Both the position numbers and the translations under genes were made by a program. Of a DNA stretch of 38,639 nt, positions 4,671 to 37,856 are shown piece after piece. Source of the stretch: a virus. Every line of letters begins with the position of its first letter. Within the stretch, counting starts at the first letter, position 1. The DNA lies in IMG/VR virus record IMGVR_UViG_3300048927_000789, positions 1 through 38,639 of that record; one strand, given 5' to 3'. A model generated the notes under the pieces. It was not told the DNA's origin and made no database searches. It worked only from the letters and a program-made list of their open reading frames with translations.

Positions 4671-5090
4671 TTATTTGATGTCGAGGTTTTTGAGGATCTG
4701 CAGGATTTCTTCTTTGCTTTTGGTTTTTATGAGGTCATTGAACGTTTGATCATAGTCCTTGACCTTGTCCCGCAAATTGATGATGTGTTGTTCTTTCTCT
4801 GCATTAGGAAGCTTGTCGAAGAGCTCTAAAAGCTGATGCTGCTGTGGGGATAACAATCTGTAGGATTCGGCTGGTGGTGGTTCATACCCCTCATCACCCT
4901 TAATAATCCAGCCCGGCTCTACGTTCAGTGCTGCAGCTAGTTTGAATAGGTTATCGCCTCTCGGTGAGGTTTCATCACGTTCCCACTGAGAGATTGTGAC
5001 ATGGGCAACCCCAGCCTGTTTACCTAGGCTGCGCTGGGTATATTTCAAGGCAGAGCGTCGCTCTTTTATACGCTGACCGATCGTTTTCAT
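4671..5090 (-). CDS. CI-position repressor, HTH only (no peptidase domain)
   Basis: A 139-residue XRE-family DNA-binding protein expected to maintain lysogeny. The N-terminal helix-turn-helix (residues 5-60) is clear: IGQRIKERRSALKYTQRSLG, then VAHVTISQWERDETSP and a GWII-KGDEGY end. The remaining ~70 residues are helical and charged (QQHQLLELFDKLPNAEKEQH) and probably oligomerise. The S24 autoprotease domain of lambda CI or LexA, with its Ala-Gly cleavage site and Ser/Lys dyad, is absent. It is divergent from cro with operators between. A cleavage-independent induction route, such as an antirepressor, is therefore likely. Confidence 0.85.
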   Translation of the reverse strand: MKTIGQRIKERRSALKYTQRSLGKQAGVAHVTISQWERDETSPRGDNLFKLAAALNVEPGWIIKGDEGYEPPPAESYRLLSPQQHQLLELFDKLPNAEKEQHIINLRDKVKDYDQTFNDLIKTKSKEEILQILKNLDIK

Positions 5091-8531: not shown

Positions 8532-8552
8532 ACCCGCTCCGGCGGGTTTTTT
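8532..8552 (+). terminator. Intrinsic terminator after replication genes
   Basis: ACCCGC-TCCG-GCGGGT followed by six T residues. It ends the early operon and insulates the LexA-controlled gene that follows. Confidence 0.85.
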
Positions 8553-8564
8553 GCGCCCAAAATC

Positions 8565-8606
8565 TTGACCCTCGTTTTTTTGGTGTTACTGTATAAATAT
8601 ACAGTT
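8565..8606 (+). promoter_or_regulatory. LexA (SOS) box with promoter
   Basis: TACTGTATAAATATACAGTT (8587-8606) is a near-perfect palindromic LexA box (CTGT-N8-ACAG). A TTGACC -35 at 8565-8570 lies 16 bases before TACTGT, so LexA would cover the -10 region. It sits 21 bases before the UmuD'-like start. Confidence 0.9.
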
Positions 8607-8627
8607 AATTATCAGGGGGTGGTTATT

Positions 8628-8951
8628 ATGGGTTTTCCATCACCAGCAGCAGACTATGCAGTACAGACTTTCACTATCGCCAGCCTTCACGGCTATGACG
8701 GCAACTGCCGAACCATCGAAACATCAGCCGGGTACGCGATCATAAACGTCGCCAGAAAGCCGGAAGTGGGTGACACCATCCTGATTTCGTTCTGCGGCAG
8801 TCTGGATTTCGCAAAAGTCCAGGGGAAAGCGCTGATCACTCAGGATGGAGAGGCTATCGAGGGTGATGCGCTGGACGATGCAACCGTAATGGGCGTGATA
8901 ACGCACCTCCTAAATCGTGTGACAGATACCGATGATCGGCCTGTGATTTAA
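8628..8951 (+). CDS. UmuD'-like protein lacking the catalytic dyad
   Basis: A 107-residue protein starting at ATG 8628 after AGGGGGTGG. It opens [10 protein letters not shown], identical to residues 25-33 of UmuD after the Cys24-Gly25 autocleavage site, so it is made already processed. The alignment continues: AGDSMI around UmuD Ser60 is here AGYAII (Ser to Ala at residue 37), GD-LL-V becomes GDTILIS, and the last core strand VFGVV becomes VMGVI. The Lys97 region (EGEFTVK) reads QGKALIT, so the lysine also appears lost. It should fold like UmuD' but have no protease activity. P1 HumD is a known phage UmuD' homologue. A role as polymerase V subunit, decoy or antirepressor is inference. Confidence 0.75.
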   Translation: MGFPSPAADYAVQTFTIASLHGYDGNCRTIETSAGYAIINVARKPEVGDTILISFCGSLDFAKVQGKALITQDGEAIEGDALDDATVMGVITHLLNRVTDTDDRPVI

Positions 8952-36130: not shown

Positions 36131-36150
36131 TACTGTATATAAAAACAGTA
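36131..36150 (+). promoter_or_regulatory. LexA (SOS) box of umuDC
   Basis: TACTGTATATAAAAACAGTA is a consensus LexA operator and, as I recall, the same as that of E. coli umuDC. It ends 15 bases before the umuD ATG. Confidence 0.95.
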
Positions 36151-36165: not shown

Positions 36166-36585
36166 ATGGAATTCATCAGGCCAACAGAACTGCGAGAAAT
36201 TATCGCTCTTCCGCTTTTCAGTGACTTAGTACAGTGTGGTTTCCCAAGCCCCGCAGCTGATTATGTTGAACAGCGTATCGATCTCAATGAGTTACTTGTC
36301 GCTCATCCGAGCTCTACATATTTCGTCAAAGCCGCGGGTGATTCAATGATCGAAGCCGGGATAAGCGACGGTGATCTGCTGGTGGTGGACAGCTCCAGGA
36401 CTGCTGAGCATGGTGACATTGTCATTGCCGCAGTAGAAGGGGAGTTCACTGTTAAACGTCTGCAGCTTCGTCCAACCGTCCAACTCATACCGATGAACAG
36501 CGCATACTCGCCGATTATTGTCGGGAGTGAGGACACGCTCGACGTATTCGGCGTCGTGACTTTCATTGTTAAATCGGCGAGCTGA
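36166..36585 (+). CDS. umuD: UmuD (polymerase V accessory, autocleaving)
   Basis: A 139-residue protein, the E. coli length, starting at ATG 36166. Cleavage site Cys24-Gly25 (LVQCGFPSP), Ser60 in AGDSMIEAG and Lys97 in EFTVKRL are all present, so RecA-stimulated self-cleavage to UmuD' is expected. With UmuC it makes translesion polymerase V. It lies 2 bases before umuC and behind a LexA box. Whether it belongs to the phage or was acquired as a moron, it lies inside the prophage limits. Confidence 0.96.
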
Positions 36586-36587
36586 GT

Positions 36588-37856
36588 ATGTTTGCGCTCT
36601 GTGATGTGAATTCGTTCTACGCATCATGCGAGACGGTGTTTCGGCCCGATTTGAGAGGGCGGCCAGTAGTTGTTCTCTCGAATAATGACGGCTGCGTAAT
36701 CGCGCGCAGCGCCGAGGCCAAGGCCGCTGGAATTACCATGGGAGAGCCTTTCTTCAAACAAAGAGAGCTTTTCCGGCGCGCTGGCGTTATTTGCTTCAGC
36801 AGCAATTACGAGCTTTACGCTGATATGTCGAACCGGGTAATGACGACGCTGGAGGAAATGAGCCCCCGCGTCGAAATTTACAGTATCGATGAAGCTTTTT
36901 GTGACCTGAGCGGTGTTAGGAACTGCCGGGACCTGACGGAGTTCGGGAAAGAGATCCGCGCTACAGTTCTGAAGCGTACGCACCTGACGGTCGGTGTTGG
37001 CATTGCCCAGACAAAGACACTGGCGAAGCTCGCAAACCATGCCGCCAAAAAATGGCAGCGGCAGACAGGGGGAGTGGTTGATTTGTCTAATATCGACCGG
37101 CAGCATCGCTTGTTGGCGATCGTGCCTGTAGAGGATGTATGGGGCGTCGGCAGGCGCATCAGTAAGAAGCTGAACGCCATGGGCATCAAAACAGCTCTGG
37201 ACCTTTCTGAACAAAGCACGTGGATTATCCGCAAACACTTCAATGTCGTGCTGGAGCGAACCGTCCGGGAACTGCGCGGCGAGCCCTGTCTCGAGCTGGA
37301 GGAATTTGCGCCGGCAAAGCAGGAGATCGTCTGTAGCAGGTCATTCGGTGAACGCGTCACTGATTACGAACAAATGAGGCAGGCCATTTGCAGTTATGCG
37401 GCCCGAGGCGCAGAAAAGTTGCGGGGAGAGCATCAGTACTGCCGCTTTATTTCTGCGTTCGTGAAAACCTCTCCCTTTGCGCTTAACGAGCCGTATTACG
37501 TGAACAGTGCGTTCATGAAGCTTCTCACCCCTACTCAGGATTCACGCGACATTATCAACGCCGCGGTAAAGTGCCTGGACAAAATCTGGCAGGATGGTCA
37601 CCGGTACCAGAAAGCCGGCATTATGCTCGGGGACTTCTTCAGCCAAGGCGTGGCCCAGCTCAACCTGTTCGATGAGAACGCGCCGCGTGCTGGTAGCGAG
37701 AGGTTGATGGAAGTTCTGGATTATCTGAACGGGAAAGATGGAAAGGGAACGCTTTATTTTGCCGGGCAGGGCATACAGCAGCAGTGGCAAATGAAGCGAG
37801 AAATGTTGTCGCCTCGATATACGACGAGATATTCAGACCTGCTTAGGGTCCGATAA
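36588..37856 (+). CDS. umuC: UmuC, DNA polymerase V catalytic subunit
   Basis: A Y-family polymerase of 422 residues, the E. coli length. Motifs: [20 protein letters not shown] (metal Asp6), [13 protein letters not shown] (catalytic Asp-Glu near 100), [20 protein letters not shown], and the C-terminal [10 protein letters not shown], a beta-clamp-binding QLNLF. It starts 2 bases after umuD. SOS-inducible mutagenesis of host and phage is the expected effect. Confidence 0.97.

Follow-up and report, generated by a model that had tools for sequence, protein, structure and literature searches.

A short, LexA-controlled UmuD'-like protein without a protease site heads a putative SOS unit in a prophage

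Why should a prophage that carries umuD and umuC also encode a protein that begins where processed UmuD' begins? The question is raised by a 107-amino-acid ORF on the plus strand (8628..8951) of the window, by which we mean the whole 38,639-nucleotide stretch analyzed (IMG/VR record IMGVR_UViG_3300048927_000789). We scanned the window with a matrix built on known E. coli LexA boxes, which themselves score 16.6 to 29.2, and found only two strong boxes. The near-consensus box TACTGTATAAATATACAGTT (8587..8606, no strand assigned) scores 27.4 and lies at a distance of 41 bp from the start of the ORF. The other, likewise near-consensus (36131..36150, no strand assigned; score 29.2), stands ahead of umuDC on the plus strand. 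There, umuD (36166..36585) is complete, with the arm, GDSM, and Lys97 (Pfam S24, 5.9e-31), and is followed by a 422-amino-acid ORF for umuC (36588..37856); PF00817 was found at the same place in the near-identical record G002. The two boxes and the full umuDC had been pointed out in an earlier note on this DNA, and all are present.

The ORF is a real gene. Its ATG at 8628 is preceded by a Shine-Dalgarno sequence, AGGGGG (8614..8619, plus strand), and its first codons (8628..8657, plus strand) encode an arm that aligns with UmuD residues 25 to 33, the N-terminus of processed UmuD'. The first residue of the protein is the equivalent of Gly25, directly after the UmuD cleavage site, exactly as the earlier note had proposed; the N-terminal 24 residues of UmuD, which include that site, are absent. 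An extra N-terminal part would have meant that this start was wrong, but the single longer in-frame ORF begins at TTG 8565, upstream of the LexA box, and in-frame stops lie upstream of the start in many relatives. The gene is under purifying selection, with a median dN/dS of 0.14 against 53 relatives, and an identical 107-amino-acid protein is encoded on a genome contig of Enterobacter vonholyi (L099).

The resemblance to UmuD extends over the whole domain. The protein matches PHROG_3469 (UmuD-like protein) essentially at full length (E = 7.6e-45, positions 1 to 104 of 106), and that family is tied to the UmuD family PHROG_811 by members from Erwinia and Pantoea, two of which match PHROG_811 over nearly their full length (2.7e-11 and 5.8e-11). 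A profile of the family matched UmuD (7e-11) and UmuD' (3e-10) in the PDB across residues 2 to 96, and its hhalign match to HumD of phage P1 had a probability of 99.7%. With the single sequence, the arm was the sole PDB match, the family profile being needed for the whole domain, and direct comparison with UmuD likewise placed the similarity mostly in the arm; Pfam S24 gave no match to the 107-amino-acid protein. Because searches with one sequence reveal mainly the arm, the earlier uncertainty as to whether any structural match reaches past the first ten residues is explained. It does: an AlphaFold (AF2) model of the protein (pLDDT, 82.5) has UmuD' (1umu) as its closest structure (Z = 10.3; rmsd, 2.8 over 87 residues), followed by the C-terminal domains of LexA, the 186 repressor, and the lambda repressor. 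Given the PHROG_3469 match, the family profile, and the predicted fold, the homology to UmuD and UmuD' is not due to chance.

Loss of the catalytic site was examined in an alignment of 59 sequences, 52 of which were of the short form. None of these 52 short-form relatives has the segment that holds Ser60, UmuD residues 56 to 66; its 11 residues are deleted. At position 97 the window protein has Ala (A62), and the family has Ala, Gly, Val, or Thr, never Lys. The earlier note had also called the protein catalytically dead, and had further proposed that Ser60 was replaced by Ala in a motif AGYAII and Lys97 by Thr. Both substitutions were alignment errors: residues G35 to D49 (GYAIINVARKPEVGD) pair with a stretch of UmuD in the alignment, and AGYAII is not the equivalent of AGDSMI. 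Since the Ser segment is deleted and Lys97 has become Ala, the 107-amino-acid protein, as read from its sequence, cannot be a Ser/Lys protease. The long HumD relatives retain the segment, most of them without the GDSM signature; P1 HumD still has ADSHH and the Lys. The sequence evidence supports a pre-processed, nonproteolytic UmuD' homologue under LexA control.

The nearest characterized relative is P1 HumD, which is itself born processed, so the idea of a pre-processed UmuD' is not new; the window protein is a shorter variant of such UmuD'-sized forms. According to a note in the P1 record, HumD complements UmuD'. HumD, with its counterparts N15 gp26, phiKO2 gp23, and that of HK639, likewise starts MGFPSPA.DY behind a LexA box, ends in a similar acidic tail closing with Pro and two hydrophobic residues, and forms no operon with umuC. 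It differs in length, at about 127 amino acids, and in keeping the segment that holds Ser60 in UmuD. Against the HumD family model NF051876 (NCBIfam), the window protein scored 23.3 bits, over residues 1 to 14 only, far from the cutoff of 120, whereas it shares with the wider HumD-like group the start at the UmuD' end, the LexA box, whole-domain homology, and the HumD-like tail. With E. coli UmuD' it has the fold, the first residues, and LexA control in common; unlike UmuD', it needs no processing, lacks the Ser60 segment and Lys97, carries an extra tail, and has no umuC behind it.

The short form belongs to a widespread phage family, HumD-related and annotated yet unstudied. Relatives' loci were gathered by pattern scans and mostly with the N-terminal motif, so whole-protein tblastn is the best unbiased evidence for them. 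Starts in the family read (M/V/L)GF[PA]SPA, often with an in-frame stop 0 to 8 codons upstream. The arm is missing from three of the tblastn records read: the protein starts elsewhere in L006 and L016, and that of L018 is interrupted. The Ser/Lys pair, whose loss the earlier note proposed to check in homologues, is absent from every short-form relative aligned. We collected 137 distinct short-form proteins, 133 of them with sufficient upstream DNA, and an exact CTGT-N8-ACAG box occupied a conserved place in 121 of the 133. Forty-four of these genes stand alone, with the box near -38. For 75, which come after a gene for a 79-amino-acid protein (PHROG_3893), it sits near -280, and another 2 have a distant box. 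The other 12 showed no exact box at that position. Of the 50 relatives' phage records searched, only 3 encode UmuC, among them G002, a near copy of the window prophage, and phage CobraSix. In CobraSix (L006, 22674-24247), the UmuD'-like protein lacks the GFPSPA arm and the UmuC gene lies directly behind it. Since most of the relatives' phages lack UmuC, the target would be UmuC, UmuD, or RecA of the host.

The surroundings of the gene recall the LexA-controlled dinI-gftA/gfoA unit of the Gifsy prophages, whose second genes are antirepressors (Lemire 2011, PMC3121763). In Gifsy-2 the order is terminator AACCCGCTGCGGCGGGTTTTTT, LexA box, dinI, and antirepressor gene. In the window, a rho-independent terminator, ACCCGCTCCGGCGGGT followed by TTTTT (8532..8552, plus strand), precedes the LexA box and would insulate the SOS unit from the early operon; a stem of this type occurs in Gifsy-2 and ahead of the box in several related loci. 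The two systems also share a small gene followed by a small antirepressor gene (here a predicted one), a position behind the replication genes, and a short noncleavable repressor. They differ in the first gene, which in the window encodes a UmuD' mimic in place of DinI. The next gene, d72 (PHROG_22673; 9126..9344, plus strand), is a predicted LexA-controlled antirepressor gene, and no sense-strand terminator was found between the two, which form a putative co-transcribed unit. The window's repressor (4671..5090, minus strand; 139 amino acids) is of the DicA type, with an HTH and a helical C-terminal domain but no S24 domain, and is not self-cleaving.

In the clade to which the window belongs, the position after the UmuD'-like gene is held by one of two unrelated genes, d72 or d55. 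The d72 form was paired with repressor C-terminal domain B at 36 of 36 loci (HTH types of about 139 and 131 amino acids), and d55 with domain A at 24 of 24 (about 163, 146, and 126). The agreement of form with C-terminal domain in all 60 unique loci (L223 to L285), across five HTH types, comes from loci that are related and recombining rather than from 60 independent events, and neighboring genes served as the control for joint inheritance. The HNH, RusA, and DnaC-like neighbors agreed with the type at 58 to 68%, much as the UmuD'-like gene did: its nearest neighbors shared a repressor type at a frequency of 0.61, against 0.50 by shuffling, and three identical UmuD'-like proteins occur with both d72 and d55. 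At L256, L257, and L259 (upstream of 10001), d72 is preceded, at about 160 bp, by a LexA box behind a terminator, and the UmuD'-like gene is missing from the interval. Specificity that follows the repressor, as befits an antirepressor, was thus found for d72 and not for the UmuD'-like gene. Judging by these patterns, d72 is the better antirepressor candidate and probably the real prophage switch, and d72 and d55 are likely new antirepressors, both under LexA control and each specific for one type of repressor C-terminal domain.

Two characterized pairs bear comparison. Rem is an antirepressor of DicA in prophage Qin (PMC10448788). The window repressor belongs to the DicA family, C-terminal domain included, and d72 is weakly like Rem (shuffle z, 4.6); PHROG_340, the family of Rem (4e-21), comes second among the family matches of d72 (E = 0.08 to 0.14). 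However, direct profile comparison of d72 with Rem fell below significance (E = 0.23; hhalign, 9%), and no LexA control is known for rem. No significant sequence similarity was seen between d72 and GftA, neither d72 nor d55 had a tblastn match in the phage collection, and the structure model of d72, with a pLDDT of 50, was too poor to interpret. SPC32H Rep-Ant (PDB 5d50) likewise combines a noncleavable repressor with a separate small antirepressor, but its proteins are unlike the window's repressor and d72, and Ant has its own LexA-like box, the UmuD'-like gene lying elsewhere. One subgroup of relatives has this pair: its repressor and a separate 86-amino-acid gene behind a LexA-like box correspond to SPC32H Rep and Ant (PDB 5d50). 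An SPC32H-type Ant gene, next to a tail-spike gene and accompanied by a Rep-type repressor, lies behind such a box at 27639-27899 of L005; the same arrangement of 5d50 relatives was seen in G008, G011, G013, G014, G017, G018, G023, and G028.

The DNA itself shows the homology, the start, the missing dyad, the LexA box, and the purifying selection. As to function, we give about an even chance to the reading that the protein is a short HumD-type mimic that acts for UmuD' and that its gene leads an SOS unit with the likely antirepressor gene d72 in second place. On cleavage of LexA, a UmuD'-like protein would be present at once as a dimer, either alone or mixed with UmuD or UmuD' of the host or of the window prophage. 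It would stand in for UmuD' in error-prone Pol V, acting on UmuC and RecA filaments with no wait for RecA-driven cleavage, while d72 would inactivate the noncleavable DicA-type repressor. Induction and a ready-made mutagenesis cofactor would then be switched on together, the mimic sitting in the dinI slot of Gifsy. The profile match, the UmuD'-like model, the match to HumD, the missing dyad, the conserved box, the low dN/dS, and the UmuC of CobraSix favor this reading, as do the agreement of d72 and d55 with the repressor, the box ahead of d72 at L256, L257, and L259, and the gene order of Gifsy-2. The rarity of UmuC in relatives' phages, where the partner would usually be the host's, speaks against it. 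So do the 11-residue deletion close to what is the active site in UmuD, the concentration of single-sequence similarity in the arm, and the fact that complementation is recorded only for the long HumD; the short protein might inhibit instead of activate. By analogy, the most likely role is nonetheless the one recorded for HumD, replacement of UmuD'; it may also, as the earlier note suggested, pair with UmuD in mixed dimers and activate UmuC early.

The main rival, which we consider doubtful, is that the protein damps the SOS response as DinI does, either by titrating UmuD, UmuD', or UmuC or by occupying RecA filaments, thereby keeping the host alive or sparing the phage genome from mutation during induction. 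The gene occupies the dinI slot of a Gifsy-type unit and 47 of the 50 relatives' phages lack UmuC, as damping would have it, but the conserved arm resembles the active UmuD' end, and HumD is recorded as complementing UmuD'. In some relatives the UmuD'-like gene is immediately followed by a dinI-like gene that has a separate LexA box, which also fits damping. That the UmuD'-like protein is itself a LexA-controlled antirepressor of a noncleavable repressor, another suggestion of the earlier note, is very improbable. The idea was prompted by the stand-alone-class phages, which have no S24 or other cleavable repressor in the records searched (an S24 repressor is present in nearly all phages of the PHROG_3893 arrangement); the gene also sits in the Gifsy antirepressor region, and in several of the stand-alone records retrieved no other gene immediately follows a strong LexA box. 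It was dropped because d72 and d55 covary with the repressor whereas identical UmuD'-like proteins stand beside both C-terminal types, because d72 is driven by the box where the UmuD'-like gene is missing, and because many relatives co-occur with a cleavable CI, and one subgroup with the known SPC32H antirepressor.

The C-terminal tail, TDTDDRPVI (8922..8948, plus strand), is acidic and ends in Pro and two hydrophobic residues, like the C-terminal tip of SSB, DFDDDIPF. Among 50 family representatives, 34 had the tail motif, compared with 28 of 3,789 background ORFs (0.7%), and the HumD tails EFDDCPVI and EFDDSPFI are comparable to the SSB tip as well. The tail might thus mimic SSB and recruit or block SSB-binding host proteins (such as PriA, RecO, RecG, and Pol III chi), with the UmuD' part as a dimer scaffold. 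This we think unlikely, since SSB requires its last Phe and penultimate Pro (PMC10164576), whereas Pro is mostly third from the end in the family, the final residue is Ile or Met, and some members lack the motif. The tail looks like the SSB tip yet differs at the strict positions of SSB. Equally a long shot is a composite in which a protease-free UmuD' dimer would bring two SSB-like tails to stalled forks and commandeer host UmuC or SSB-bound repair proteins at induction, its gene sharing a transcript with that of an exchangeable antirepressor fitted to the C-terminal domain of the repressor.

The observations that appear new are the short form without the whole Ser60 segment, control by LexA only, the dinI-like slot, and the matched pairs of d72 or d55 with a repressor; a search of the open literature returned nothing on any of the four, which does not prove their absence. 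The family has passed beyond control by RecA-driven cleavage, so that its only known control is LexA, and it could show directly whether UmuD' depends on cleavage for its function or only for its timing. A further prediction is that d72 and d55 read the repressor's C-terminal domain as a swappable lock and key, allowing SOS induction with noncleavable repressors. No mEp390 copy was found in complete E. coli genomes. In the plasmid collection, 50 plasmid records carry the UmuD'-like gene, and several of them are probably phage-plasmids.
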